Source of the DNA: Thiomicrorhabdus sp. 6S3-12 | GTDB lineage: Bacteria; Pseudomonadota; Gammaproteobacteria; Thiomicrospirales; Thiomicrospiraceae | DNA: 64,000 nucleotides | Direction: 5' to 3' | Assembly: GCF_017571475.1 (NCBI RefSeq) | Contig: NZ_JAGETW010000006.1 | Span: 124,001 to 188,000, forward strand | In this document: positions 35,450 to 54,419 of the stretch, one piece after another | Layout: the number at the start of each line of letters is the position of its first letter | Numbering within the stretch: the first letter of the stretch is position 1 | Position numbers and translations under genes: made by a program | Notes under the pieces: generated by a model | The model's input: the letters and a program-made list of their open reading frames with translations, nothing else | What the model was told of the DNA's origin: nothing | The model's database searches: none

Positions 35450-35540
35450 GGTGGACTGGCTGAGTGGTTGAAGGCGGCGGTCTTGAAAACCGTTGTAGGT
35501 TAGTAGCCTACCTGGGGTTCGAATCCCTAGTCCACCGCCA
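35450..35540 (+). tRNA. tRNA-Ser(UGA)
   Basis: 91 bases including encoded CCA. Acceptor GGTGGAC pairs with GTCCACC; anticodon TGA lies in the loop CTTGAAA; there is a long variable arm (TAGGTTAGTAGCCTA) as in class II tRNAs. The 3' part from 35505 is the left copy of a 41-bp repeat shared with 52520-52560, so this gene is the integration target and stays intact because the element supplies an identical 3' end. Confidence 0.96.
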
Positions 35541-35545
35541 TTATT
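35505..35545 (+). repeat. attL: 41-bp direct repeat in the 3' end of tRNA-Ser
   Basis: The 41 bases from AGCCTACCTG to CCGCCATTATT are identical to 52520-52560. They cover the end of the variable arm, the T arm, acceptor 3' strand, CCA and five further bases, the classical target of tyrosine integrases. Confidence 0.95.
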
Positions 35546-36953: not shown

Positions 36954-39338
36954 TCAATTTCTCAAATCACTATTTAGCTCAATCACCACATCACGGCGGT
37001 TAAAGTTGATAAGGAACTTTACTCCTCTACCATTCTTGGTGCTTGTGTATGTCACCCATTGATATTCAGTTAGAACGAGCATAAATTCATCTTCATGACC
37101 TCGTAACTTGCTGTTGTCCTTGAGGGTTTTCTTAAGCGCTCCTAAATTGATGCCATTTTGTTGATAATAAGAAAGTTTTTGGTCAGTTGATATTATCAAT
37201 CGTAAGAAATCTCTGGCTTTTTCTATCGCTGAATGTGATTGATATGCTTTTGTCGTCCTTGCATTCATCTCTTGTGAATATTTATCGAGTTCATAAGCTG
37301 ATTCAAGGTATTGAGGCTTTAAAGTCTTGCTATAGTTGCCATCCATTGCCTGAAGAATTACAGCTTCCTTAACTATTCTACTGGTTGCTTTATTTCTCTC
37401 TTCATTAATTGTTTTGTCTGCAAGCAGCTTTTCATTCTGGTTATATATTTCATTCCGCAGTTTTTGAGCAGAACTGTCTAATTCCATAACCATCCTTTCC
37501 TTATCACCACTCAACCAACCCAGCGGGCTAGCCTTTCCTTGAAGTCTTCTATCAAGAAGGTCATTAACAACATCGTAATAGCCAGTCATGGAAGCGACGT
37601 TGAGGCCATTACCTCGTTCAACATCAATAAATCTTTGGCCAATCATATCTGGTTCATTTGTGATGTTGAAACGTGCTAGTAATCCTTTACTCCTTACTCT
37701 TTCATCAGTATAAAAAGGTGCTAACTTTTCCGGCTGGACAAGGATTATTCCATTAGCAACAGCACTATCAATTTTAAAACTACCCCCAGCATTACCTTTG
37801 CTTCTTGTTCTGCTATATGTACCGCCTTGAGAAGCCTTGATTAGAAAACTATCACTGATGTTTGCTTGATTTGCTTCAAATCTACCTAATAAATTGCTGA
37901 ATACTTCATCCCCTTCATCCGTTGCAATCATGATGCTTCCCCCTTGCCTATGGCACTCTTCGGCCATGCCTTGGTCTGTAGATTCTTGGATATATAAGAC
38001 AGGTTCGTGCATATCCTTAGATGTCATATTTTTTAATCGAGCAATCTCTAAAGCAATTTTTTCAATAGCTTTATCATTGTGTCCTTTGCTGATTTCCTCC
38101 CCTAAGTTATTTTCAAGAGCTTTGATTTTGTTGTTAGTTGCTTTTTTCATTGATTCAGCAGCATGGACGCCATCTCTAAAGTTTTTCTTTAAGTCTCGTT
38201 CACGCTCAACTAAAGGTTTAACTAAATTATCGAAAAATGATGATTTGTAGGATCCCGTTCTTCCAGTCATTACCTCAATAGAATTAACTGGTATTATTAA
38301 TCCATGGTCTTCTTGTACCCAAACACTATTTCCATGACCGCTAGCAATGACGGGAAACATTCCTCTGACACAATAAGACATTGGCATAAAAGTAAATTTG
38401 TGTAATGCCTCTGCTGCTTTAACAATATTGGTCGGTAGGAGTGTAGTAGGGAAATTACTTGCTTGAATCTCATATCGAGGCAGTGGTAAAGGCTTCTTAA
38501 TCTTCTCAAACCCGCTTGATACTGATCGTTGAATATCATCAAACCGTTCCCGCCATGAATCCTCCCCACGTCTTGAGCTTTGGTTCATCAAGCCTTCAAT
38601 CATTGCTTGAGCCGCTGATTCACTATATCCTTCTCTTGCTAACTTCATCCCTAACTTATTAATGGAATTATGCAAATCTGAGCCTGCTAGAATTTGGTTG
38701 GCAGGGCTTAATTCTCCCTGACCACTCCTCGCGGGTTCGTTGGATGAAGTTAGGTTTGGGGCTATTGATTGCACAGCGGGATCATTGATATAGGTTGGCT
38801 CCCATATCTCACCATCATGATATTCAAATTGATATGAATCTGGTTTGTTACTACCACCAAAGTACCAAATTCTAGCCAATGTACTATTTTCATACGCCCA
38901 TTTTAAGGGAAGGTTGAGCTGTTCATATAAACCTCTAGTAGCCGATTCTAGCTGTGAATGATGAACAGGCTTGCAGTGAACTACAATTCTGAATTTATCC
39001 TTATCAGTTGTATAGGAGTTATATACAAATCCTTTAATATCATGCTTCTGTAATGCTTTATAGACTTCTAACACGCTTGGCATTTTCCCTCCGTCTTCCA
39101 GCGGGCTATCAGCATCAATGATGATCATATGGTATTGAGCATCAGGGCTTATGTATTGCTTCTGTCTGATTTTTTCAGTCCAGTCAGGGGTACACATAAA
39201 CCAAGGTTGATTATTCTTTTCAACACCTTCAATCAAGTTTTCTTTCTGGAAAGCACCTGCAAATTCTTCAAAGCTGAGATTTTGAATTTCAAAGTTTGGA
39301 TTCTTTGCACCTTTGCCAATTGGGATTTGTAATTTCAT
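36954..39338 (-). CDS. DUF3987-type primase/helicase replication protein
   Basis: 794 aa. N-terminal part (about 60-180) looks like a primase-polymerase fold: IIIDADSP acidic motif and RIVVHCK. A DUF3987-type region follows with GRTGSYKSSFFDNL in Walker A position (the usual GKT is GSYKSS), MIATDEGDEVF as a Walker B candidate, and ANGIILVQPEKL. The C-terminal 100 residues are helical with a possible winged-helix (INLGALKKTLKDNSKLRGHEDEF). Such proteins replicate P4-like and other integrative elements. Overlaps the HTH gene by 4 bases. Confidence 0.75.
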   Translation of the reverse strand: MKLQIPIGKGAKNPNFEIQNLSFEEFAGAFQKENLIEGVEKNNQPWFMCTPDWTEKIRQKQYISPDAQYHMIIIDADSPLEDGGKMPSVLEVYKALQKHDIKGFVYNSYTTDKDKFRIVVHCKPVHHSQLESATRGLYEQLNLPLKWAYENSTLARIWYFGGSNKPDSYQFEYHDGEIWEPTYINDPAVQSIAPNLTSSNEPARSGQGELSPANQILAGSDLHNSINKLGMKLAREGYSESAAQAMIEGLMNQSSRRGEDSWRERFDDIQRSVSSGFEKIKKPLPLPRYEIQASNFPTTLLPTNIVKAAEALHKFTFMPMSYCVRGMFPVIASGHGNSVWVQEDHGLIIPVNSIEVMTGRTGSYKSSFFDNLVKPLVERERDLKKNFRDGVHAAESMKKATNNKIKALENNLGEEISKGHNDKAIEKIALEIARLKNMTSKDMHEPVLYIQESTDQGMAEECHRQGGSIMIATDEGDEVFSNLLGRFEANQANISDSFLIKASQGGTYSRTRSKGNAGGSFKIDSAVANGIILVQPEKLAPFYTDERVRSKGLLARFNITNEPDMIGQRFIDVERGNGLNVASMTGYYDVVNDLLDRRLQGKASPLGWLSGDKERMVMELDSSAQKLRNEIYNQNEKLLADKTINEERNKATSRIVKEAVILQAMDGNYSKTLKPQYLESAYELDKYSQEMNARTTKAYQSHSAIEKARDFLRLIISTDQKLSYYQQNGINLGALKKTLKDNSKLRGHEDEFMLVLTEYQWVTYTSTKNGRGVKFLINFNRRDVVIELNSDLRN

Positions 39339-39655
39339 GCATCACCTCCCGTCTTTAGCTCAGAGTCAACAGGGGTTGCACCAACCATCTTTATTTCTTT
39401 TAAGTGTTCATGAGCCCAATCCATAACAGTTTCTTTTCTGTATAGGATTTTTCTTTTTCCCGCTTGGATGAATTTAGGGGCAGGGAAGCCAAAGAGCGTT
39501 CCTGTAGAGCGTGAGTTTTTAAGAGTATCTTCTGTAACACGAAGAATGGCTGAGACTTCCTTTGGTAACAGGAATTCAATCTCAGACTCAACAATGTCTG
39601 GGAGGTCGTTGTTTGTTGAGCTTGTTTTTAAATTTTGATGGGTATTTTTAGACAT
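39335..39655 (-). CDS. AlpA/excisionase-like helix-turn-helix protein
   Basis: 106 aa. The central part (about 28-80) matches the MerR/HTH_17 fold: FLLPKEVSAILRVTEDTLKNSRSTG, then FPAPKFIQAGKRKILYRKETVMDWA. Such small proteins serve as excisionases or as activators of element genes. It starts the minus-strand replication module; the stop overlaps the primase start. Confidence 0.8.
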   Translation of the reverse strand: MSKNTHQNLKTSSTNNDLPDIVESEIEFLLPKEVSAILRVTEDTLKNSRSTGTLFGFPAPKFIQAGKRKILYRKETVMDWAHEHLKEIKMVGATPVDSELKTGGDA

Positions 39656-40142: not shown

Positions 40143-40544
40143 ATGTTTGGTTCTATTAAGTCTGCGTATAAAAAATCTCAAGCTGAAGAATTGCTTTCAA
40201 AAGTTTTAGTGGCTCATGATCCGTTTAGTCAGTTTAATGGAGAGCAAGATAAAGTTGCCAGCAATCTTATTGAAAATGTTTGGAACGCTAGACCAAACAT
40301 ATTCTCTGGAAAAGAATTCGGAGAACGCCCTAATACAATATCTATATTACTGTTTGCTTTGGCTAATGGTCTTGAACTAGAGAAAGATAGTACTTCAGCT
40401 AGGAATATTTACATTATGTGTATGAGTTCACTCTTTCAGGAAGTTGAAGAGAGAGCGGGAGCTTATAAGCTTGTAAAAGTTGATGATGTTTTGATAACCG
40501 CATCTTTAAATGTGTTTGAAAAGCATACTTTAAAAAATTGGTGA
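40143..40544 (+). CDS. Hypothetical protein (133 aa) preceding the SMC operon
   Basis: Soluble, mostly helical; begins MFGSIKSAYKKSQAEELL. No domain recognised. Ribosome site GGGGTAGGGT. It lies 120 bases ahead of the SMC gene on the same strand and might be an accessory or regulator of that operon, although the gap is large enough for a separate promoter. Confidence 0.6.
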   Translation: MFGSIKSAYKKSQAEELLSKVLVAHDPFSQFNGEQDKVASNLIENVWNARPNIFSGKEFGERPNTISILLFALANGLELEKDSTSARNIYIMCMSSLFQEVEERAGAYKLVKVDDVLITASLNVFEKHTLKNW

Positions 40545-40664: not shown

Positions 40665-43600
40665 GTGAATTTCTTAAAAAAAGTAATATTGGTTAACTCT
40701 TGGCCTAATGGTAACGGTAAGATTCGCATCTTTGATGTTGACGGTGGAGCAATCCTGCAAGGCGGCAACGGCGCGGGTAAAACCAGCACATTAATTCTCC
40801 CATTACTTTTTTTTGGAGCGCGTCCTAAAGATGTTATGAAGGCTTCAAAGAAGCATAGTGATAACTTTATCGGTCGCTACCTTCCTACTGACAGTAGCTA
40901 CATTGTTTTTGAATATGTGAAAAATAATCAAAGCAAGTTGGTTGTGGCTCACTCCCCCGATGGTGAAAATCTTTATTACCTGTTTTGTGAGTCTGCATTT
41001 AGCGACAAACTTTTTCTAGATGAGCGTAACCGCTTTGTGAAAGTAGATAATCTTCGGAACCATCTGCAAATCAATAATGGCGTTTCGGTTTATAAAAAAC
41101 GATTCAGCACCGCCCAGTACCGCGAAATCATCCAGTCGGCTAAACGTTTGCCGTTAAGCCAAAATGACGCACGAACCATTAATGAAGCAAAACAACGTTT
41201 CTCATTATGTGAAAAAAATGAGTCAATTGCCGGCTCGGAAAAAGTAGCGGTATCCATTATCAGTAGTAGCCCTAGTTTTCAATCAATCAAAGAACTTATT
41301 GCACAGGAAATTGAAGTGTTTGACGGTGGTGTGCAAGAGCAATTATCTAAAGAAACTAGTGTTAAAGAACTTCAACAGCAAGCTACAATTATTCGCCAAA
41401 CAAAAGGCTTTTTGACCCATCAGGAGAAGGTCAGGGAGTTGTCCGTACTTAGTCGTGCCATTAGTAACCTCGAAAGAGATTTGGGCCAATTAAAGCATCA
41501 GGCTTTAAGTCGGTTTAATGAAGAAGAATCTTTGCTATCTCGCATCAAGGGCGAAATAGAAACTCGCATCACAGACTTCTCAAGTTACGAAAGTAAATAC
41601 AATGAGCGCAATCGCCAATATAACGAGACTCTTAGCCAGTTAAGAGGTGATGTTTTAGATGCTCAAAGTCGTGTAACCAAGTTAATAACTGATTTTCAGG
41701 CCTATCAAGAGCAAGGGATCGAAGATAAGCGTAGACAGGGTGAGAAGGTTGGTGAGCTAACTACAGAGATCCAATCCCTAAATCAGCTATTAGATAGCCT
41801 ACAAGGTGCGTTCGATAAGATAGACCGGCTGTATCAAAGCCAGATAGAAGCATTAAAAGAGTCGTTTAACGAGCGTATTAATTCGGAGAAAGAGCGATTA
41901 TCCGACGAAAAGTCCAAAGAGGAATCCGTTCGGCTGGACATTCAGTCTAAACAGCAGGGAGATCTTGAAGTTTTGGGCACCAGTTTCCAAGAGAATCAAC
42001 TGCAGAACAACAGATCCAAGGTCGATATTCAAGTGGAGATTGGGAAGCTGGAGCACCAAATTTCCTATCCATCCTCTTCTGAATTGGATCGCCTGATTAC
42101 TCATAACAAGCAAATAAGTAGCGATCTGGCTGAGAAACAAGCTGCTAAATCCGAGCGCCTAGAGTTGCTTTCAGCTATTCGGGATGAGCGCCACAGCAAT
42201 ACCGTAAAAATAGACAGAAACAAAGCTAGTCAAGAACGTCTGAAAGAACACTTGGGTACTCTTGGTACATCAATCGAAGACTGTAAGAAGTCGCTTCGTC
42301 ATGTAGATTCCATGTTGTTCTTCAAAATTGCGAATCTAAGCCCTGAAAAAGCCAGCGTCGCATCAAGAGCCTTGACGTTGGAACTTCTTAAGACTCCTGT
42401 TAAAGAAGAGCTAGTAATCAATGGTGACGATAACGGATTGCTTGGCTTTGATATTGATACCAGTCACTTACCTCCGCAACAGGTTTTAGATAGAGAAGAG
42501 TTGGAGCGTGAACAATCCAAACTAGAGCAAGACAAGCAGCAAACACATGACAAACTTACCCAGTTTGCTCAAGAACGCACCGAGTTGGATAAGGAAGCCA
42601 GTACCCTTTATCGCCAGTTCAGTGCTGCCGAGGTTGAATTGGGTCAGATTAACCTAGAAATAGAACAGCTAGAGACACGATTCAACCAATCTGAAATCGA
42701 TATTAAAACCGAAACCCGTAAGCAACAAGAACAAGCCAAACAACGCAAACGTGACCAAGAGGTGTTGTTGAAACAATGCCAAGAGAAAGAGGACACTCTA
42801 TTAAGTGATTACGAATCAGCCAAGAAAAAGGTCAAGCAGGATTCTACAAGCAAGTTAGATGAGTCATTCGAGCGAATTAGACTGAAAGAGGAATCCTTGC
42901 TCCAGTACGAATCTGAACAACGCCAAGAACTAGAACAGAGAATAGCAGAACTGGAAACAAAAAAACGTAACGACCTAACTGAACAAGGGGCACGAGTTGA
43001 AGAAATTGACGCTTGTAGAAAGTCTATAGCGGAACAATCGAACAAGTTAAAAGAAGCAACAGACGCAAAAGCAGAGTATGACCGTTATTCTGCATGGATT
43101 GATGGTGAGTATATCTATTTGTCAAAATGGGAAACAAAGCTCAATAAAGCCCAATCTGATCTGAGTAAAACAGTAGGTGAACACCAAAAACTTACAGAAG
43201 AATTTAGAAAGGCGTCTGAAGAACACAACACCAAGCTTACAGAATTGAATAAGACGCTACAACTTGCCAGCCATGAAGTGATTACACTACGCCAACTACT
43301 GGACGGGTATTTGTCTAGCATTCCTGCCAAGGAAAATAACGACACGCCCCCACCCGCGGACAGGCTTCAAAAACAGGTTAAATCTATTTTTCACGATATT
43401 GGTGAACACGATAATAACGGTAAGCATTTGTTTAGACGAGTTATGACCGGATTTAGGCAGTATCCAGAGTTATTTACTCTTTGTAAGGACTTGTTACTTC
43501 AGGAGGGGTTTGACGAACTAGATACTGATAAGAACTGGAAAGTTTTAACCATTTCTCTTAGTCACCTTATGAGCGGAACACTTGTTGAGCAGATTGACAC

Positions 43601-44354
43601 CATCAAGCAGGTGTTTAACGCCAAGTCACAAGAGTTGGTGAGTCTGGATGAAAAACTAACTGAAACAGAAAGCAGAATCACCTTAAAAGGCCGTGAAATC
43701 AGCCGACAATTCAATCAATCTGGAACCAAATTTGAAAACATTGATGAATTGGAAGTTAAAATTCACTCTAGTTTATCAAGATTGCCGTTTAGGAAGTCAT
43801 TGGCAAAAGCTGCCAGCGCCTTTAATGAAGCGAAGTTATTAGCAGAGCATGAGTCACCATCAGATGTCTATTTTGATGTGATTGCCAATGCTGTCAGGGA
43901 TATTGCCGAACAAAAATCAGGGTTGGACGTATCGCAATTTATTGAAGTATCGGTACGAGTCAAAAACTCCAATGCCGACCGTTGGCGAGAAGCGGTAAAT
44001 GACCGAGAGCTTGAGGGTATTTCAAGTGAAGGATTGAGTTTCTTAATCCTTATTTCACTTTATGTGGCGATTAAGAACGTAATCCAAAAAAATCACAGTG
44101 CTGTACTGCTTTGGTCGGTTGACGAGTTAAGCCGAATACATCCTGATAACACCCATGAATTAATGAAGATTCTTGAGAAGGAAAAAGTCCAGCTTTTCGG
44201 AGCTACTCCAAAGGCAGACCCTAAAGTGGTCGAAATTTTTAATCACTTTTATGAGATTAAAACAAAAGGTGGAATTCACAAGTTTAGCGATAAGAGCCGT
44301 ATTTCAGCCCAAGAAGCTATCTTGAGCCATATTCAATCGGTACGGGAGGGATAA
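40665..44354 (+). CDS. jetC: SMC-like ATPase, JetC/MksB-type (Wadjet-like)
   Basis: 1229 aa from GTG 40665 with AAAGGAAG upstream. N-terminal ATPase lobe with Walker A GGNGAGKT (33-40); two long coiled coils (about 230-520 and 620-1000) around a hinge-like globular piece (about 535-625); C-terminal lobe with ABC signature SSEGLS (about 1120-1125) and Walker B AVLLWSVDEL (about 1146-1155, D1153/E1154). This is the MukB/MksB/JetC layout rather than canonical Smc or SbcC (no zinc hook). It would form a DNA-loop-extruding dimer with the next three gene products. Confidence 0.82.
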   Translation: MNFLKKVILVNSWPNGNGKIRIFDVDGGAILQGGNGAGKTSTLILPLLFFGARPKDVMKASKKHSDNFIGRYLPTDSSYIVFEYVKNNQSKLVVAHSPDGENLYYLFCESAFSDKLFLDERNRFVKVDNLRNHLQINNGVSVYKKRFSTAQYREIIQSAKRLPLSQNDARTINEAKQRFSLCEKNESIAGSEKVAVSIISSSPSFQSIKELIAQEIEVFDGGVQEQLSKETSVKELQQQATIIRQTKGFLTHQEKVRELSVLSRAISNLERDLGQLKHQALSRFNEEESLLSRIKGEIETRITDFSSYESKYNERNRQYNETLSQLRGDVLDAQSRVTKLITDFQAYQEQGIEDKRRQGEKVGELTTEIQSLNQLLDSLQGAFDKIDRLYQSQIEALKESFNERINSEKERLSDEKSKEESVRLDIQSKQQGDLEVLGTSFQENQLQNNRSKVDIQVEIGKLEHQISYPSSSELDRLITHNKQISSDLAEKQAAKSERLELLSAIRDERHSNTVKIDRNKASQERLKEHLGTLGTSIEDCKKSLRHVDSMLFFKIANLSPEKASVASRALTLELLKTPVKEELVINGDDNGLLGFDIDTSHLPPQQVLDREELEREQSKLEQDKQQTHDKLTQFAQERTELDKEASTLYRQFSAAEVELGQINLEIEQLETRFNQSEIDIKTETRKQQEQAKQRKRDQEVLLKQCQEKEDTLLSDYESAKKKVKQDSTSKLDESFERIRLKEESLLQYESEQRQELEQRIAELETKKRNDLTEQGARVEEIDACRKSIAEQSNKLKEATDAKAEYDRYSAWIDGEYIYLSKWETKLNKAQSDLSKTVGEHQKLTEEFRKASEEHNTKLTELNKTLQLASHEVITLRQLLDGYLSSIPAKENNDTPPPADRLQKQVKSIFHDIGEHDNNGKHLFRRVMTGFRQYPELFTLCKDLLLQEGFDELDTDKNWKVLTISLSHLMSGTLVEQIDTIKQVFNAKSQELVSLDEKLTETESRITLKGREISRQFNQSGTKFENIDELEVKIHSSLSRLPFRKSLAKAASAFNEAKLLAEHESPSDVYFDVIANAVRDIAEQKSGLDVSQFIEVSVRVKNSNADRWREAVNDRELEGISSEGLSFLILISLYVAIKNVIQKNHSAVLLWSVDELSRIHPDNTHELMKILEKEKVQLFGATPKADPKVVEIFNHFYEIKTKGGIHKFSDKSRISAQEAILSHIQSVREG

Positions 44355-44358
44355 AACT

Positions 44359-44997
44359 ATGCGTGATGATACGTTGATGATTCGTCAGCTAACCAACGGG
44401 CAAGTATTATGTTCCGTTACAGCTCCCGATGCCGTGGCTTACTTGAAAACTGAGATAGGGCGCGAAAGTGTAGATGATGCGCTGCATTATCAAGGTATGA
44501 CTTTGGCGCATTCTGAATACCAAGACTACTGGTATGCCGTTTATAACGACCTAAACTTTAAGCCGGATGCCTCCGCTATAAGAAGGGAACTACAGCACGT
44601 TTTCAATACGACAGAACCATTTTTGTCGTTTATGAAGCTGGTTATGGAGGCTAGTGGTGAAGACCAGTATCCCGATATTGAGCATGACTTCTATTTTGGG
44701 AGTGTTTTATCGACCATCGAAAACAATGATACTCTTGCCAATGATCTTGTAAAGCTAACCAGCAAGGCTTTTTTCAAAAAGGCCAGTAACCGAAGTACGC
44801 ATAGTGAACGATTGAGAACGGTTGTTGATCTTATGGAGTCCGAGGGGATTATTATTTCTGATGATTCTGGTAGCCACTACACCTATACAGGTAAGCTTGC
44901 GTACCATATAGCTCTAGTAGAACGTGTGCTAGAGATTCAAGTGCCTGAATTGCTAGATGATGTTGAAGATGAGCAAGGTTCATTGGAGTTGGCTTAA
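44359..44997 (+). CDS. jetB: Winged-helix SMC subunit, JetB/MksE-type
   Basis: 212 aa. Helical N terminus, then segments typical of KITE-type tandem winged helices: SERLRTVVDLMESEGIIISDDSGSHYTYTGKLAYHIALVE. Starts 4 bases after the SMC stop with GGGAGG as ribosome site and shares the TAATG with the kleisin start. Primary-sequence similarity is weak; the call rests on size, winged-helix pattern and operon position. Confidence 0.65.
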   Translation: MRDDTLMIRQLTNGQVLCSVTAPDAVAYLKTEIGRESVDDALHYQGMTLAHSEYQDYWYAVYNDLNFKPDASAIRRELQHVFNTTEPFLSFMKLVMEASGEDQYPDIEHDFYFGSVLSTIENNDTLANDLVKLTSKAFFKKASNRSTHSERLRTVVDLMESEGIIISDDSGSHYTYTGKLAYHIALVERVLEIQVPELLDDVEDEQGSLELA

Positions 44998-46259
44998 TGA
45001 ATCCATCCGAAATTAAGTTGCTTGGGGAAGCGATAGCTCAAAATGCACAGTTTTTATCCGACTTAGATTATGTTGAATTAGATCCGCTAGAAAGAACCGA
45101 CTTGCCTAGAAATATTGGGTTGCTAAAAAACGCCCGCGTTGTTGATGAGGTTGAAGATGGTTATTTTTACCCGGGTGAAAACTATGAACTTCTGAAAAAA
45201 GCGATTGGTTCAAGTCGATATGAAGCCGATACAACACCCGACATTGCTGAATGGCTGGAAAGGCTTTCTTTTTACGTCGCCAATTTCTTTGATTCATTGA
45301 GTAATGATGATGATGCAGTAACGAATCATAAGCGCCAAATTTACCGCCATATCCGACAGCTAGAATCGAAACTAAATGTAGCAATCAGAGAGGCGGATTA
45401 TCAGGTAAGCAATGAATTTGGCAACGTCAAAACCATTGAAGCCAAAACACGGTTATCACAGCATTATTTATCCATTACAGAATCGATATTAGGTCGTTTA
45501 AGCCGGATTCAGTTCAGTAACCTTACCGGATTGCTGCCGTACCCTAATTCGGATATGGATGTGGTTATGGTTGAATTGGATAAAAAGCTTAATCGTTTGC
45601 GTGGGTATTTGCGAACGGTCATCCTAAAAATCCAAAAACTCAATATATCATTCAGAAAAATCGAAGCCCGAACCAAAAAGCTTAATCGCCTGTTAACAGC
45701 TATTCAGAACAAGGCAATTGAATTAGATGTGGAATTTGTCGATGTGAACAGCTTGCCACAGATTTTTCATAAGGTTGAATTGAACGGTATTATTCCAGTA
45801 GCGCACTTTAATGCCATATCCCCATCGGTATATGAAGAAAGCAGGTTCAGAGATATTGCTTCTAAGTTAAAGCTGAATAGAGAGCAGGTTAAAAATAGAG
45901 AACAGAATAAAGACTATGTTGCGTATCAAGAAGATGAACCGATAGAGCAAGCAGAGGATTTGTTTGAAGTTCAATTCGAGCAAGAAAAACAAGTTTTTGT
46001 CGCATATCTGTTTAATTGTGGAGGTTCTGAGATTTCTTTAAGAGATTACTGGGAGTCCACGAGCTCTCTTTCTACATTGGTTGATGTACGTTCATGGTTG
46101 TATGAAATGGTTAACTGGCTTGGGGAGTTGGAACAGGATATGGATAGCTATGAATTTAAGTTATTGCTAATCAAAGAACCTGTTTGTGAAAAAACCGATG
46201 TGTTTATTGTTTCAGACGTAAAGACTCAATTTTCTAATAAGCCTGTTCAACATGTTTAA
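44997..46259 (+). CDS. jetA: Kleisin-like SMC subunit, JetA/MksF-type
   Basis: 420 aa. N-terminal region (about 1-110) may be a winged helix (DLPRNIGLLKNARVVDEVEDGYFYPG), then a long helical middle with coiled-coil character (LESKLNVAIREADYQ, LDKKLNRLRGYLRTVILKIQKLNISFRKIEARTKKLNRLL) and an acidic C-terminal part. This matches MukF/MksF/JetA architecture. It overlaps jetB by 1 base and jetD by 8 bases, indicating coupled translation. Confidence 0.65.
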   Translation: MNPSEIKLLGEAIAQNAQFLSDLDYVELDPLERTDLPRNIGLLKNARVVDEVEDGYFYPGENYELLKKAIGSSRYEADTTPDIAEWLERLSFYVANFFDSLSNDDDAVTNHKRQIYRHIRQLESKLNVAIREADYQVSNEFGNVKTIEAKTRLSQHYLSITESILGRLSRIQFSNLTGLLPYPNSDMDVVMVELDKKLNRLRGYLRTVILKIQKLNISFRKIEARTKKLNRLLTAIQNKAIELDVEFVDVNSLPQIFHKVELNGIIPVAHFNAISPSVYEESRFRDIASKLKLNREQVKNREQNKDYVAYQEDEPIEQAEDLFEVQFEQEKQVFVAYLFNCGGSEISLRDYWESTSSLSTLVDVRSWLYEMVNWLGELEQDMDSYEFKLLLIKEPVCEKTDVFIVSDVKTQFSNKPVQHV

Positions 46260-47085
46260 TCAACAACAGCTAAAAACCCTTCAAAGTATTATCGCAAAAA
46301 GGATGTCCTATCAGAGTAAGGCTAAGTGGTTGATAGGCTTTTGTGAAGATACCGGAATTGGCTCAGTAAAAAGCAATATCGCCTCATTTGGCATAAAGGA
46401 TATTGAATACCTAGAGAGTTACCTTATAGCTAATGGTTTTCCAATAGAAAGTCTTTCATCCGATTTTGACGATAGGATAGAAGCATCTAAGTATGTTGGT
46501 AACGAAAAGATAACGAGTAATGCTGTCACCCATGAACATGTTTTAGCCTTATTCCCGAAACGGAATTACAGTCTAAATCATCAAAATTTGCCGCGAGGAA
46601 GAGCTTTAGATTTGACTGTGCAAGAGGCATTATCTCTCAATGTGAAAGAAGTGATTGTTGTTGAAAATTTAGCTGTATTCTTAAACGCTATTCACTATTC
46701 AAACCTGTTATCAATGCTCTCTAATCATTCCATGCTGATATTTAGGGGGATGGCAGGATGTTACTCGTTAAAAGGTTCTGTGAGCTTGATAGGGCTATTT
46801 AAAGGTGAAAGGGTTGGCTTGTTTGACTTTGACCCTGTTGGATTGAGCGCGATTGGTCACAAAGACCTTGATTCAATGTTAGTGCCGGACTTGGGGGAAT
46901 TAAGAGATAGGCTCGATAAAAAAACTCTAGTGTCTGATCCGATGAAGTATTCGAGTCAAAAGGCCTTAACTACATCGGACAGTTTGAATGCGCATGCAGA
47001 ATTTATTAATACGAATAGGCTTGCTGTATCTCAAGAGTACATGATCGCTACAAATTTAAAGCTAGAAAAAATTAATCTGCGTTAG
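46252..47085 (+). CDS. jetD: TOPRIM-domain protein, JetD/MksG-type nuclease
   Basis: 277 aa. N-terminal helical/winged part (1-110), then a TOPRIM fold: VKEVIVVENLAVFL with E138, MLIFRGMAG, and VGLFDFDPVGLSAIG with D192/D194, followed by a C-terminal helix NTNRLAVSQEYM as in DUF2220 proteins. E...DxD are the expected metal-binding residues. In Wadjet systems JetD cleaves circular DNA once the SMC complex has extruded it. This copy is shorter than many JetD proteins, probably by reduction of the N-terminal arm. Confidence 0.8.
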   Translation: MFNQQQLKTLQSIIAKRMSYQSKAKWLIGFCEDTGIGSVKSNIASFGIKDIEYLESYLIANGFPIESLSSDFDDRIEASKYVGNEKITSNAVTHEHVLALFPKRNYSLNHQNLPRGRALDLTVQEALSLNVKEVIVVENLAVFLNAIHYSNLLSMLSNHSMLIFRGMAGCYSLKGSVSLIGLFKGERVGLFDFDPVGLSAIGHKDLDSMLVPDLGELRDRLDKKTLVSDPMKYSSQKALTTSDSLNAHAEFINTNRLAVSQEYMIATNLKLEKINLR

Positions 47086-47427: not shown

Positions 47428-47485
47428 GAATAAATTTAAGCTAACCGGCCACGCTTTAGCTCGGTCATTAAGTGTATTGTTATGT
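47428..47485 (-). other. attC-like site 5 (end of the array, degenerate)
   Basis: Read on the minus strand: ACATAAC (R'') at the right end, L'' CTTAATG, a hairpin centre, L' GGTTAG followed by CTTAAAT, and a decayed R' TTTATTC where GTTRRRY is expected. The core TTTAAGCTAACCGGCC is shared with the other sites in the array. Confidence 0.65.
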
Positions 47486-47765: not shown

Positions 47766-48365
47766 TTATGCCAATAGCTCACCAATAGCTCCTACAAAGG
47801 TTGGAACCTCAAGCAGGTGCCACCATTGTTCATTGTGATGTCTTCCACCAAGCCGAATATTGTTTGTAAGATGATTCCACTTAATAGGTTCTGGCTCTGG
47901 AATATCCTTGTTTCCTGATTCTTCTGTAGCATACGACCACCCTAACCAATTGTGGTGGTCTATTTCATGACCACCATTTTTCGCTTCTTGGATATGAGGC
48001 TCGACAACATCTGCATGGATAATTTTATTGCACACTTCTCTGAGTTTCATTTCATCAAACATCATGCACTGGTAGTGTTTGTTGACAGCTTTCATAGCTG
48101 ACTCATAAGAAGATCGGAGCTCAGAACCATTTGGAAGGCATTTCATTTGATCGTCAAGCACACGAATAGATATTGCCACCTCAAGTAAGAGTCTACTGAT
48201 TTCACGAAAGAAATAGTTATCTTCTAGTTTTGCGATGGCATCATCTCTTGTATCAGGATCGCAATGCCGGGCAATTTCTTTATTTGCATAAAAATGGCAA
48301 ATAAGTCGATAGGCATTTAATTTAATTGCCTCCCTGTCGAGAACGTAATTTGATGGTAACTGCAT
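47766..48365 (-). CDS. Cassette protein of unknown function (199 aa)
   Basis: Soluble helical protein; R109-EVCNKII-H117 resembles the R-x(n)-H motif of HEPN-type proteins (here seven residues between). Histidine/tryptophan-rich C-terminal part (NWLGWSYATEESG, GGRHHNEQWWHL). It starts 13 bases downstream of the cassette boundary left by attC site 4, the short leader normal for integron cassettes. No family assigned. Confidence 0.65.
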   Translation of the reverse strand: MQLPSNYVLDREAIKLNAYRLICHFYANKEIARHCDPDTRDDAIAKLEDNYFFREISRLLLEVAISIRVLDDQMKCLPNGSELRSSYESAMKAVNKHYQCMMFDEMKLREVCNKIIHADVVEPHIQEAKNGGHEIDHHNWLGWSYATEESGNKDIPEPEPIKWNHLTNNIRLGGRHHNEQWWHLLEVPTFVGAIGELLA

Positions 48366-48377
48366 ATTTTATTTGAA

Positions 48378-48438
48378 ATCTAAAGTTTAAGCTAACTGGC
48401 TGCTCGTTAGCGAGGTCAAGTTAAGCGTAATGTTAGGT
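48378..48438 (-). other. attC-like site 4
   Basis: 61 bp. Minus strand: R'' ACCTAAC right after the stop of the 298-aa gene, spacer ATTACG, L'' CTTAACT, central hairpin CTCG-CTAA-CGAG, L' AGTTAG with one base fewer than L'' (extrahelical base), and R' TTTAGAT, where the first G of GTTRRRY is replaced by T. Confidence 0.78.
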
Positions 48439-48447
48439 TGAAATTTA

Positions 48448-49344
48448 TTAACGTTCATTCATTTTATTGGTTAGTTTTATTAACAAATTTTTATCGTCAT
48501 CAGAAATCCCTGGACGTGGATTTACTCCCCATTGAGATGAGTGAACAAGAAGGTTTCTGGATTCAGAGCTAGCCATGAATGAAAATTTAATTATTGTTCC
48601 GATGATTTTTTTGTTTTTAGTTTTATAAATAGTTTCCCAAACTTCAGAGTTTTCTTGGATGAAAGAGTCCATAGTTTGATCAATGTAAGACTTTAGTTTT
48701 GAATCATTTTCGGCTACAAGAATATCGTTTGCTGGATTAATTAACTTGGTTACTTCAATAGCGACCACACCTTTATGTCTTGTTCCAATATTTCTACCAA
48801 TATGACTTATTAATTGTTTTGAAGCTTTTTTTATATTGGCCTGAAGCTTTTTCTTTGAAAAGATTCTTTTACACTCAATCCATATCTTTGTTTTTTCTAT
48901 AGAAACTCCTGTGTCGGTAAACGCATCTAATATTGCTTCGATACCTTTTTCAGGGTTATGTGATTTAGCAGCTACTAATGCTTCAAAGAGGAAGTTTCGA
49001 GCTTCTGTTGAAGTGGCTGATTCATCGTGAGAATGAATTGGGCCGTTCACACCTTTTTGGAGTTTTTCAATTATGTGATGAAGGTTATCTGTAGGTTCAT
49101 TTCCAAACGCTTTATAGATTTCAATAAAATCATAGATTTCAAATAATGAACTAAAAAAATTTGGGAACTCATTCTTGACTTCCAAATCATCAGCATCCCT
49201 ATAATTGTCTTTCCAGTATTCAATGGTTTTATGGTAGTGTTTTATTCTGCTAGCACTAAACTTGACGCCTATTTTATTTAACCAAGCTAAGGCTTCAGAA
49301 TATTGTTCAAATTTATCTGAATATGATTCTGTTGGTATATTCAT
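48448..49344 (-). CDS. Cassette protein with a HEPN-like motif (298 aa)
   Basis: Soluble and mostly helical, no recognised family. Near the C terminus SESR-NLLV-HSSQWG gives R263-x4-H268, the spacing used by HEPN ribonucleases found in many abortive-infection proteins. A basic middle segment (IFSKKKLQANIKKASKQLISHIGRNIG) could contact nucleic acid. The ATG is the fifth base after the upstream attC boundary. An abortive-infection role is possible but unproven. Confidence 0.65.
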   Translation of the reverse strand: MNIPTESYSDKFEQYSEALAWLNKIGVKFSASRIKHYHKTIEYWKDNYRDADDLEVKNEFPNFFSSLFEIYDFIEIYKAFGNEPTDNLHHIIEKLQKGVNGPIHSHDESATSTEARNFLFEALVAAKSHNPEKGIEAILDAFTDTGVSIEKTKIWIECKRIFSKKKLQANIKKASKQLISHIGRNIGTRHKGVVAIEVTKLINPANDILVAENDSKLKSYIDQTMDSFIQENSEVWETIYKTKNKKIIGTIIKFSFMASSESRNLLVHSSQWGVNPRPGISDDDKNLLIKLTNKMNER

Positions 49345-49348
49345 TTCA

Positions 49349-49409
49349 ACCTAACGTTTAAGCTAACCGGCCGCGCGTAAGCGCGGTCAGGTTGAGTGTT
49401 TTGTTAGAG
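49349..49409 (-). other. attC site 3 (best preserved)
   Basis: 61 bp. Minus strand: R'' CTCTAAC two bases after the gene stop, spacer AAAACA, L'' CTCAACC, hairpin GACCGCGC-TTAC-GCGCGGCC, L' GGTTAG (lacking one base, giving the extrahelical G of L''), CTTAAAC and R' GTTAGGT, which fits GTTRRRY exactly. Next cassette starts TTAGGTTGAAATG. Confidence 0.88.
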
Positions 49410-49411
49410 CA

Positions 49412-49870
49412 TTAATCTACTCTTATCCATTTTTCAGACCTTTCAATTCTTTCAAGAACAGTTTCATCTTCATGACTAGAATATCTAAGTCGTTCTATTT
49501 TTTCTGTAAACTCATTAATAAAGACTTCTTTGTTTTCATATGAACCATTAACGACAATGTTTTCTATATTGCCTTGATTGTCTTTCATTGAAATAACTAA
49601 AGCTGGTTTTGTTCGTTCAACTTGATTGAGTTTGGGTTCAACTTTATCGATATAAATCTGCCAGAGCAAGCTAGCAATCGCTGCTACTTCTGCACTTCTA
49701 CCAAGTACGCCTATCCAGTTAATTGAGGCATAAATGACACCTGGCTCAAAAACTTGTTTGAATAGATGAAAATCATCAATCTCTTGAGACAATACTTGTA
49801 ACACAGTATTTTTTTCTGGGCCATGCTCTATATTGGCTAATGCACCAAAGAATTCAATTGCTTTTGTCAT
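49412..49870 (-). CDS. Cassette protein of unknown function (152 aa), downstream of TIR gene
   Basis: Helical N-terminal half with a moderately hydrophobic stretch (SAEVAAIASLLWQIYI), then a small beta segment (PALVISMKDNQGNIENIVVNGSY) and a charged C-terminal helix. I do not recognise it. The gene directly follows the TIR gene with only a truncated attC between them, so the two may act together. Confidence 0.6.
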   Translation of the reverse strand: MTKAIEFFGALANIEHGPEKNTVLQVLSQEIDDFHLFKQVFEPGVIYASINWIGVLGRSAEVAAIASLLWQIYIDKVEPKLNQVERTKPALVISMKDNQGNIENIVVNGSYENKEVFINEFTEKIERLRYSSHEDETVLERIERSEKWIRVD

Positions 49871-49887
49871 AATCAGCTCGTTTCTCT

Positions 49888-49936
49888 AGTGTTCTAGCTA
49901 CGCGTTATTACGGCATGATTGAGTGAGTTGTTATGC
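49888..49936 (-). other. Truncated attC-like half-site 2
   Basis: Minus strand GCATAAC (overlapping the TIR gene stop) plus ACTCACTCAATC match R'' and L'', but no matching L' or GTTRRRY R' follows before the next gene. A half-site or decayed site. Confidence 0.55.
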
Positions 49937-50395
49937 TTTTTTTTGACTTAATAGCCAAATCAATGCAGCACCTAATACCAACCAAACAATCGGTTCCCAG
50001 CTTTTAGATTTTGCAGTACTAAAAACAGTTGTTTGAATCCAACTTAAGACTTTTTCAGGGCTTTCATGGAACGGTATATATTTAATATCACCAAGAGCGA
50101 TAGGCATTTTGGATTCACTATCAAGTTTGATTGGTACGATTGTTTTGTTTTCAGACTTAGCTAGTTCAATTTCTTGTGCGACCCATTTTGAATCTTGAGA
50201 GTTTGAAGACCACATTAATAAAAATAAGTCTGCACTTTTAATAGCAGGGTAAATTTTTCCGGTTAAAGACTCCCCTGGTTCTACTGAATTTTCAGCAAAA
50301 AAAGTTTCGATATGAGGGTTTTCAAGCATCCCTTTAATATGATTCACTGTATCTAAATCTTTGGTTGAATAGCTAATAAATACATTAAATGCCAT
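49931..50395 (-). CDS. TIR-domain protein with C-terminal membrane anchor
   Basis: 154 aa. TIR fold from residue 3: FNVFISYSTKD, ESLTGKIYPAIKSADLFLLMWSSNS, and WVAQEIELAK with E75 in the place of the catalytic glutamate of TIR NADases. Residues 133-150 (WEPIVWLVLGAALIWLL) form a membrane anchor. Small TIR proteins act in bacterial immunity as NAD-consuming or signalling enzymes. Cassette gene: ATG 13 bases after the boundary, with AGGAA. Confidence 0.88.
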   Translation of the reverse strand: MAFNVFISYSTKDLDTVNHIKGMLENPHIETFFAENSVEPGESLTGKIYPAIKSADLFLLMWSSNSQDSKWVAQEIELAKSENKTIVPIKLDSESKMPIALGDIKYIPFHESPEKVLSWIQTTVFSTAKSKSWEPIVWLVLGAALIWLLSQKKA

Positions 50396-50407
50396 ATTGT
50401 TTCCTAT

Positions 50408-50471
50408 GTATAACGTTTAAGCTAACAGGTCACGCGTTAGCGTGGTCTGGTCGGGTTGAGAGTATTTTACA
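50408..50471 (-). other. attC-like site 1
   Basis: About 64 bp. Minus strand: degenerate R'' (TGTAAAA), L'' CTCAACC, hairpin CACGC-TAAC-GCGTG, L' TGTTAG, CTTAAAC and R' GTTATAC, the variant common in Vibrio-type sites. It follows the stop of the membrane-protein cassette by about 6 bases. Confidence 0.75.
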
Positions 50472-50476
50472 AAGGT

Positions 50477-51031
50477 TCAAGGTGCTAACTTTAGCCCTAT
50501 ATTAAAAAATGCAAACATAATACCTGTAGATAAAGTGGCGCCAATAGCATATAAAACCCAGTGGTATTTAGTTAGAAATGCTAACAATCGGACAAGAGAA
50601 ATTGATGCTAAGACTAGGGCAACAAAATATAAAGAAAACATATAAATTGCAGAAATAAAACCGCCATATTCTTGAAGAGCCTGTTTTCCTGTGTAAATTA
50701 ATACAGTAGCCAAAAATGCAGCCAATGCTTGCTCACCAAGAAAATTTGAAAAAACAGGGAAAGTTAGTTTTGATTTCTTGTCAGGTAATTCCAAAAAGTC
50801 TTTGATTGTTTCATTTGAAATCGATTCAGCTTTCTTACTTATGAATGGTAGAGAAATTACTACAGCACTCAATAGGTTAATAAAAACGGCCGTAAAAATT
50901 ATTTGTTCTGATAATTTTTTACCTTCAATAAGGTCTCGCGCTAACAAATAATCTAAATATGCAATTAAAACTAAAAAAATAACTGAAATTATTGATTCCC
51001 ATATCCCATAACCGAATAATTTTTTGTTCAC
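50477..51031 (-). CDS. Cassette membrane protein (184 aa)
   Basis: Starts at GTG 51031 with GAGGA 7 bases ahead; an ATG 21 bases upstream lacks a site. Four to five hydrophobic helices (about 8-26, 38-57, 92-108, 115-138, 150-172) with a charged cytoplasmic loop NETIKDFLELPDKKSKL between the second and third. No family recognised. It is the first cassette of the array and lies next to the integrase gene. Confidence 0.65.
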   Translation of the reverse strand: MNKKLFGYGIWESIISVIFLVLIAYLDYLLARDLIEGKKLSEQIIFTAVFINLLSAVVISLPFISKKAESISNETIKDFLELPDKKSKLTFPVFSNFLGEQALAAFLATVLIYTGKQALQEYGGFISAIYMFSLYFVALVLASISLVRLLAFLTKYHWVLYAIGATLSTGIMFAFFNIGLKLAP

Positions 51032-51150
51032 GTTTTTTCCTCGTTGTGACATATATTATGAGGGCATTTTACCCCTGCATTGGGTGGGTATTGTAAACAA
51101 AAATAGGGCATAAAAATTGTGCTTATTAAGTAGAATATCTTACATTGTTC

Positions 51151-52296
51151 TTATAGCTTGTCTACAGCGCTTTTTAAGTGGTCTGGAGAAAGGTGGGCAT
51201 ATATCTTAGTCATCTCAATAGAACTGTGTCCGAGAAGCTCGCTCACTGTATAGATATCAATGCCTTTCATAACAAGTTTTGAAGCGAAGGTATGTCTAAG
51301 ATCGTATAGTCTAAAATCAATTAATTCCGCATTCCTTCTTAATTTGTACCATGCTTTATTCACACTGACAATCGGCTTGTCAGCATTCATGTTGGACGGG
51401 AATACAAGTTCATTTGAAGGGCATATTAACTTCCACTCGGTCAATCCAGAAAGTAGCTTTTCATTGATAGGAATGTGCCTTGTTTGGCCTGTTTTTGAAA
51501 ACGAAGCCTGAACTGTTAGAAGCTTGTTAGTAAAGTTAATATCATCCCATCTAAGATTGAATGCTTCTTGCGGTCTTGCCCCTGTATTAAGAAGGACTGT
51601 AAACAGAGGTTTAATATGGTCATCTATCCCGCGTGAGTGAATTGCTTGCCATAACCTTTCCTCTTCGATTTCACTTAAAAACCTCACAACACCTTTCTTA
51701 TCAGTTTTTAGGCGTTTGAATCCCTCAATGGGATTCGAATTGATTAAGTGCCATTTAACAGCTTGGTTAAGAAGTGCTTTTATTGCATTGATTGCTCTGT
51801 TGACTGTCGCTGGTTTGATGTCATTAGAAAGCTGGCCTGAAACCCATTTGTCTAGCTTTTGCGGTGTTATGTCTGTTAGAGCTAGGTGCATGAAATCTTT
51901 GAAGCGAAGCTCTATTAATCTGATAGTTGTTTCAGGACGTTTTTGATTCGTTTTTATGAAAGGGTAGTATTCATTATCGAGGTAGTTTCTGAGTATGAGC
52001 TTGGTGGTTAAAGCGGCTTGTTTTCTATCTTCTACTTTCTGTGCTTGTGGATCATTGCCAAGGGCGATTTCAGCCTTAAGTTGCTCAGCTACTTTTCTCG
52101 CTGTAGGTACAGAGATATCACCAAACTTACCAATTTGATATTTACGCAGTTTGCCAGTTTGTCTCCATTTGAAGTAGAAGGTTTTGGTGCCAGACTTTGT
52201 GACCTTTATTTTTAGACCTGTAGTCTTAGGGTCAGTGACTTCATAGTCTCTGTCCTTAGCTTCAAGTTTGCCAATTTCTGAGTTAGTGAAGTTCAT
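51151..52296 (-). CDS. Tyrosine recombinase/integrase, P4 type
   Basis: 381 aa. N-terminal arm-binding domain (DUF4102-like, KTTGLKIKVTKSGTKTFYFKWR), core-binding SAM-like domain (about 100-190) and catalytic domain with R in LNTGARPQEAFNL, LYDLRHTFAS (Y at the position often held by H), LLGHSS and the nucleophile tyrosine in MTKIYAHLS. It is the integrase expected for a tRNA 3'-end target and faces away from attR. It is not an integron integrase (no IntI-specific patch). Confidence 0.93.
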   Translation of the reverse strand: MNFTNSEIGKLEAKDRDYEVTDPKTTGLKIKVTKSGTKTFYFKWRQTGKLRKYQIGKFGDISVPTARKVAEQLKAEIALGNDPQAQKVEDRKQAALTTKLILRNYLDNEYYPFIKTNQKRPETTIRLIELRFKDFMHLALTDITPQKLDKWVSGQLSNDIKPATVNRAINAIKALLNQAVKWHLINSNPIEGFKRLKTDKKGVVRFLSEIEEERLWQAIHSRGIDDHIKPLFTVLLNTGARPQEAFNLRWDDINFTNKLLTVQASFSKTGQTRHIPINEKLLSGLTEWKLICPSNELVFPSNMNADKPIVSVNKAWYKLRRNAELIDFRLYDLRHTFASKLVMKGIDIYTVSELLGHSSIEMTKIYAHLSPDHLKSAVDKL

Positions 52297-52519: not shown

Positions 52520-52560
52520 AGCCTACCTGGGGTTCGAATCCCTAGTCCACCGCCATTATT
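52520..52560 (+). repeat. attR: 41-bp direct repeat
   Basis: Identical to 35505-35545; consists of the tRNA-Ser 3' part only, with no tRNA 5' half before it. It marks the right end of the element. Confidence 0.95.
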
Positions 52561-53877: not shown

Positions 53878-53902
53878 ACACTTCTCTGTTGTTTTTAGAC
53901 AA

Positions 53903-53990
53903 GGTGGTCTGGCTGAGTGCTTGAAGGCCGCGATCTTGAAAAGCGTTCAAGGTGAGTAGCCTACCTGGGATTCGAACCCCCTGTCGTCAT
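53903..53990 (+). pseudogene. Decayed second copy of tRNA-Ser(UGA)
   Basis: The segment matches the whole tRNA-Ser of 35450-35540 including 5-6 bases of its leader (GACAAGG), the D arm and the TGA anticodon loop, but acceptor strands GGTGGTC and TGTCGTC no longer pair, the anticodon stem has mismatches and CCA is lost. It is a tRNA pseudogene rather than an att fragment, because the 5' half is present. Confidence 0.8.
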
Positions 53991-54000
53991 TATTTCAAAG

Positions 54001-54027
54001 AGCCGAACAGGGATGTTCGGCTTTTTT
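54001..54027 (+). terminator. Terminator behind the tRNA-Ser pseudogene
   Basis: AGCCGAACA-GGGA-TGTTCGGCT with T-run; near copy of the terminator at 52565-52592. Shows that the duplication included the tRNA plus its terminator. Confidence 0.85.
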
Positions 54028-54419
54028 GGTTTCTGCGCTACAGATTTTTTGATGTGAATGGTTCTGCGTGGGTTTTGACAAATTGATTCAGTGAAGCTTT
54101 TTATACCAAACGGGCAGTTAGTGTCTTTTAGGCTCGTATCCGTGTCCAGTCTATTTTGGCTATCTGTTTTTGTGCCTTAAACTTGTCGCGGAGGTGAAAT
54201 CTAATGTTTTCAGGCGCGGCTTTCCGGCAGGATGCCAAATCGCTGTACTGACCTGTGATCCTGAAATTTTGCTGATTTCAATTTTGATCTAAGTTTCTTT
54301 TTTATCTTTTATAGATGCGTTTTCTATTCTTTATCAGCCTTAACTTGCATCGGAAATTTATCAATTTAAGGTAAAATATTTTTACCTTTGGCTGTTATTT
54401 ATGTACTATGACTACATAA
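54028..54419. other. 392-bp gap without recognised features
   Basis: AT-rich toward its right end; no coding frame with a ribosome site and no strong hairpin seen. Confidence 0.5.

Follow-up and report, generated by a model that had tools for sequence, protein, structure and literature searches.

A Wadjet-like operon of gene order C-B-A-D with a compact predicted nuclease in an integrative element of Thiomicrorhabdus

Can an operon that carries the parts of a Wadjet system in an unfamiliar order, with a short nuclease, still be expected to act on circular DNA? This question is raised by four genes at positions 40665-47085 of a 64,000-nucleotide stretch of Thiomicrorhabdus sp. 6S3-12 (contig NZ_JAGETW010000006.1, positions 124,001 to 188,000; hereafter the window), which an earlier note, made from the sequence alone, had read as a divergent Wadjet/MksBEFG-like operon with the SMC gene first. 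The Wadjet complex works by extruding small circular DNA, which is cut once the motors meet (PMC10586767, PMC12287153), and its mechanism has been studied almost entirely on type I (PMC10586767). Our analysis suggests, with a probability of about 0.7, that the C-B-A-D system is a Wadjet-like complex that restricts circular DNA and belongs to neither type I nor type II, its function being deduced from homology.

Four tightly coupled genes and their products

The operon consists of the following open reading frames (ORFs):
40665..44354, plus strand: C, SMC/MukB-type ATPase, JetC-like (GTG start, 1229 aa; Pfam DUF3584)
44359..44997, plus strand: B, KITE subunit, MksE/JetB-like (212 aa; Pfam MksE)
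44997..46259, plus strand: A, probable kleisin, JetA/MksF-like (420 aa; AlphaFold2 model and Foldseek)
46252..47085, plus strand: D, compact JetD-like TOPRIM protein, predicted nuclease (277 aa; DUF7281, hhalign, AlphaFold2 fold)

All four frames are intact, and their junctions measure +4, -1 and -8 nt, indicating that C, B, A and D are tightly coupled, as the earlier note had described them. Short gene overlaps are likewise found within the operon in most relatives. C matches Pfam DUF3584 along its full length (E 3.5e-86) and possesses the Walker A (GGNGAGKT), signature (ISSEGLS) and Walker B (SVDEL) motifs on which its reading as an SMC-like ATPase had been based, the key motif residues being invariant across 11 SMC homologues. 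Profile comparison matched C with the heads of JetC1/2 (E 5.7e-18). A search of the PDB with C as a single protein gave no useful match, and a profile search with its coiled coils returned mainly unrelated helical proteins. Judged by its sequence, C is a MukB/JetC-type SMC ATPase with intact motifs.

D matches Pfam DUF7281 (E 2.5e-18) and comprises an N-terminal winged helix (about residues 1-85) and a TOPRIM domain (about 92-277). Nine of its residues are invariant in an alignment of 39 relatives, including N139, G197 and the three that had been singled out beforehand, E138, D192 and D194. When 11 members of the D family were compared with Pfam, only DUF7281 (11/11) and the Topo VI-A/Spo11 TOPRIM model (4/11) were matched, and DUF3322 and DUF2220 were not found; three of the 11 also matched the JetD2 model (up to 5e-5). 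A PDB search with D as a single protein gave no useful match and a profile was needed, which retrieved topoisomerase VI-A (E 0.0024). Moreover, hhalign aligned D with JetD over the TOPRIM half (E 1.7e-8), with the E-N, D-x-D and Q-E positions in register. The AlphaFold2 model of D is confident (predicted local distance difference test, pLDDT, 89.7), and in structural alignments its TOPRIM half was closest to MksG (8b7f, Z 11.0), JetD (7til, Z 10.2), Topo VI-A (Z 9.9) and Spo11 (Z 8.6), while residues 1-85 matched winged-helix proteins at lower Z. The TOPRIM fold proposed for this protein is thus borne out by the model. Since the profile matches JetD and the predicted fold is nearest to MksG, JetD and Topo VI-A, D is a compact winged helix-turn-helix and TOPRIM protein of the JetD kind and a predicted nuclease. 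The ratio of nonsynonymous to synonymous substitution rates (dN/dS) of D was 0.07-0.17 in eight pairs of relatives, similar to that of the other operon genes, and by this measure D is under purifying selection.

As for the two remaining subunits, the window copy of B matches Pfam MksE with E 5.8e-4, under the curated cut-off, and all 11 homologues examined match the same family (best 1e-12). The small winged-helix protein of the earlier note can accordingly be assigned by sequence to the MksE family of KITE subunits. PDB profile searches with A and with B returned mainly unrelated helical proteins. For A, Pfam yielded no meaningful family and the profile match to JetA was weak. Its AlphaFold2 model (mean pLDDT 79, predicted template modelling score 0.47) consists of an N-terminal winged helix, a helical bundle and a long helix, and a C-terminal beta hairpin. 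The kleisin-like character claimed for A held insofar as Foldseek ranked JetA of E. coli JetABCD first (8q72_E, E 1.5e-3) with MukF among the top rows, residues 1-251 aligning with MukF 3rpu at Z 11.1 over 242 residues; it fell short in that the template modelling score of the JetA match was low and unrelated helical bundles reached similar Z. A is a probable, though not proven, kleisin, a reading that draws on how its N-terminal half is folded, on where the gene stands in the operon and on what its partners are.

Comparison with known SMC systems

The operon resembles Wadjet/MksBEFG types I and II in that an SMC protein, a kleisin (here the probable kleisin A), a KITE protein and a TOPRIM nuclease are encoded together, that the pattern E-N ... 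G ... D-x-D ... G ... Q-E is common to the nucleases, and that large plasmids are among the carriers. It differs from them in gene order (A-B-C-D there, C-B-A-D here), in the separate clade of its SMC protein and in the nuclease: JetD of types I and II has 363-482 aa with DUF3322/DUF2220, whereas complete D proteins have 266-307 aa with DUF7281, in keeping with the compactness already ascribed to the 277-aa protein.

Regarding Wadjet type III, the JetC3 models also belong to DUF3584 and one relative of C scores 4e-4 against JetC3, but the window proteins match no type III model; type III reference operons were not found among 299 genomes. The MksBEF/MukBEF condensins share a MukB-type SMC protein, an MksE-type KITE subunit and, by prediction, a MukF-like kleisin fold, and differ in that the fourth gene here encodes a predicted TOPRIM nuclease. 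Lamassu/DdmABC was also considered and was rejected on the partners, which are a KITE and a TOPRIM protein instead of LmuA and LmuC; no window protein matched the LmuA, LmuB or LmuC models.

Relatives of the same gene order form one clade

The earlier note had called for a search for loci of the same order, and for an inspection of whether they form a clade. A scan of GTDB contigs, in which genes were assigned by profile hidden Markov models of the four families, gave 50 loci: 37 with complete C-B-A-D (including L071, whose B is split over two frames), two with a truncated C, seven without D and four cut or broken. No other order occurred among these 50. Together with nine large plasmids, one phage record, one further genome (L102) and the window, C-B-A-D loci total 49. 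The plasmid relatives were found by tblastn of C and D against annotated plasmids, and the phage relative by tblastn of C against phages. The nine plasmids (107-1168 kb) come from Rhodoferax (two), Pseudomonas (three), Vibrio, Azospira, Aromatoleum and Marinobacter, and all have the order C-B-A-D.

The reference systems are ordered differently, as had been supposed. The type II reference (L092, PADLOC JetD2), the type I relatives L095 and L097, and the plasmid-borne Wadjets of Cohnella, Rossellomorea and Erythrobacter are all A-B-C-D, and the conserved order given in the literature is mksFEBG (PMC10123090). A literature search, mostly of open papers and with the original Wadjet paper outside it, found no mention of DUF7281 and no description of a C-B-A-D order.

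We then placed the SMC heads in a tree of 73 sequences and 458 columns, with type I-like and type II references. The 58 proteins of the C-B-A-D kind form a single, widespread clade (ultrafast bootstrap support, UFBoot, 98), from which the type I-like (99) and the type II proteins stand apart, and it is for this reason that we place the system outside types I and II. The nearest relatives of the window protein are those of Thiomicrorhabdus L065 (support 99) and Thiomicrospira L067 (100). A sister group of four loci (L106, L107, L109 and L110; union with the C-B-A-D clade, UFBoot 100) also has DUF7281-type nucleases, but its SMC proteins are about 300 aa shorter (917-956 aa) and its order is A-B-C-D in three loci and D-C-A-B in one, where the final gene is an MksE (2.3e-17). 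These loci have hardly any PADLOC match. Given that the sister group mostly retains A-B-C-D, the simplest explanation is that C-B-A-D is derived and became fixed at the root of the clade.

The phage record is that of Dolichospermum phage Dfl-JY45 (209 kb), with a complete C-B-A-D operon at 86907-93262. This stretch has a GC content of 66%, and the record also encodes a DnaB-like helicase and a Cas4-like exonuclease. Provided that the record represents a genuine phage, this would be a case of a phage with a Wadjet-like system. In viral contigs, the search retrieved a single, partial SMC.

Proposed mode of action

By analogy with Wadjet, dimers of C with the probable kleisin A and the KITE subunit B would form an ATP-driven, loop-extruding motor on which the predicted nuclease D would be docked. 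Once a small closed circle had been fully extruded, the motors would stall against each other, D would be switched on and both strands would be cut, while linear DNA and very large replicons would escape. Such a complex, encoded on a 17-kb element in the window and on large plasmids in other carriers, would exclude competing plasmids or circular replicative forms. Complex assembly, loop extrusion, size sensing, cleavage and the anti-plasmid benefit are all inferred, and the system probably lets mobile elements exclude rival circular DNA. It should be noted that the plasmid carriers are all large, which fits size sensing; we did not use this as evidence, because large plasmids hold more genes and those that carry type I relatives are likewise large.

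The operon lies in an integrative element

The placement in a mobile element, suggested from the outset, could be fixed precisely from the following features:
35450..35540, plus strand: tRNA-Ser(tga), integration site (ARAGORN)
35505..35545, plus strand: left attachment repeat, 3' end of tRNA-Ser (exact 41-bp direct repeat; empty site)
36954..39338, minus strand: DUF3987 protein of 794 aa, likely replication protein, a role assigned by inference (Pfam 7.7e-32)
39335..39655, minus strand: small HTH_17 protein (Pfam 2.4e-4, under cut-off)
40143..40544, plus strand: ORF of 133 aa upstream of C, matching no family, outside the conserved module
49931..50395, minus strand: TIR-domain protein, ThsB-like (Thoeris), second probable defence gene of the element (TIR_2 7.2e-22, ThsB_TIR 1.5e-8)
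51151..52296, minus strand: tyrosine integrase adjoining the right repeat (Arm-DNA-bind_3 and Phage_integrase; Pfam 2e-33)
52520..52560, plus strand: right attachment repeat (exact 41-bp direct repeat; empty site)

A same-genus genome has the uninterrupted site (99% over query 1-288, spanning the junction at 246). The 41-bp repeats, the integrase, the shift in GC content (38% in the element against 47-49% in the flanks) and this empty site define a 17.0-kb integrative element at tRNA-Ser. The low GC content indicates recent gain.

The 133-aa ORF was considered as a fifth component and rejected, as none of the other loci has a homologue of it in the 5 kb on either side. Its function and that of much of the element are unassigned, which would suit decayed or passenger genes without function. 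The operon itself speaks otherwise: its frames are open and its motifs intact, dN/dS in relatives is well below 1, and the four genes stay together in 49 loci. We therefore regard a functionless operon as very improbable.

A branch without the nuclease

Six loci from Aliiglaciecola, Catenovulum and a related alteromonad (L055-L058, L062 and L064) lack D. They form a clade (support 99) nested with a D-bearing sister (support 100), and thus one alteromonad branch has lost the nuclease. C-B-A is kept in all six with intact Walker motifs; ordinary genes occupy the position of D, with a kefC-like gene downstream in five of them. A seventh D-less locus, in Colwellia (L070), has an integrase downstream. 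The seven D-less C-B-A operons are candidate condensins derived from the defence system.

This raises the question of whether the window operon is itself a condensin-like organiser or partitioner of the host chromosome or of a large plasmid, with D as a topoisomerase-like helper and not a weapon. Canonical SMC and MukB were not found in the window genome, which would favour this role; they were likewise not found in that of L065. The sole DUF3584 protein of the window genome is C in the mobile element. On the other hand, nearly every other intact locus possesses D, and D is under purifying selection. The nuclease is also sporadic within the genus (three of 32 same-genus genomes, the window genome included), the GC content bears the sign of recent gain, and the D-less genomes searched possess their own canonical SMC (5/5). 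A condensin role for the window operon is, on this balance, quite unlikely.

Genomic neighbourhood of the relatives

We listed 116 flanking proteins from 22 loci; this is a plain listing with no enrichment claimed. Pfam matches included WYL-domain regulators (5/116), helix-turn-helix proteins, Tn7-like TniQ, phage integrases and TraH, and PADLOC matches included MADS, GajB, RmrA, methyltransferases and a reverse-transcriptase system. A WYL regulator lies divergent from C, at most 155 bp away, in six loci. Such defence-type neighbours and WYL regulators, and the fact that some C homologues weakly resemble LmuB/AriA models, would also fit an SMC-nuclease defence whose chief targets, as in Lamassu/DdmABC, are phages or other replicating forms of DNA and not plasmids. 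The LmuB similarity is uninformative, as true JetC proteins display it too, and B (MksE) and D (JetD/Topo VI-A-like) belong to the set that defines the circular-DNA-cutting Wadjet. A mainly anti-phage function is accordingly unlikely.

Weighing the Wadjet-like assignment

Several points weigh against a Wadjet-like restriction complex. PADLOC recognised none of the four window proteins; no Jet model scored below 0.01, the best value for C being 0.52 (JetC2), whereas real Wadjets run as controls scored E 1e-88 or better. The long N-terminal region of JetD is missing from D, which may therefore dock differently on the motor, and the short protein may have another mode of activation. The kleisin assignment of A stands on a weak fold match of its predicted model. 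Finally, a sublineage retains C-B-A without D, indicating that the motor can serve another purpose.

A wider view would make these loci a separate major Wadjet-like lineage ('type IV') that the defence catalogue used here does not contain. Its gene order would be derived and its nuclease stripped-down; it would often serve as an inter-element weapon on large plasmids and integrative elements, and one of its branches would have turned into a chromosomal condensin after losing the nuclease. We put this forward tentatively, at a little short of even odds. A distant lineage with a compact nuclease would show which parts of JetD are needed, and natural relatives with and without D allow the transition between plasmid defence and condensin to be tested directly. 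Moreover, the annotated plasmid records label the four proteins 'ATP-binding protein' or 'hypothetical protein', so that surveys undercount SMC-based anti-plasmid immunity, above all on plasmids, a blind spot of the catalogues.

Other features of the window

Imperfect repeats of about 72 nt, about 1 kb apart, occur at 47435-47467, 48365-48436, 49336-49407 and 50395-50466, between the minus-strand ORFs of 47766-51052. They resemble integron attC sites, and one of them folds strongly on both strands (z -3.0). An integron origin for the repeats at 47.4-50.5 kb was considered; no integron integrase above the cut-off turned up in the genome. Beyond the right end of the element, positions 53897-54032 contain a decayed second tRNA-Ser gene end (87% over 89 bp) as well as an 88% copy of the sequence that flanks the right attachment site on its far side, perhaps the remains of an earlier integration.
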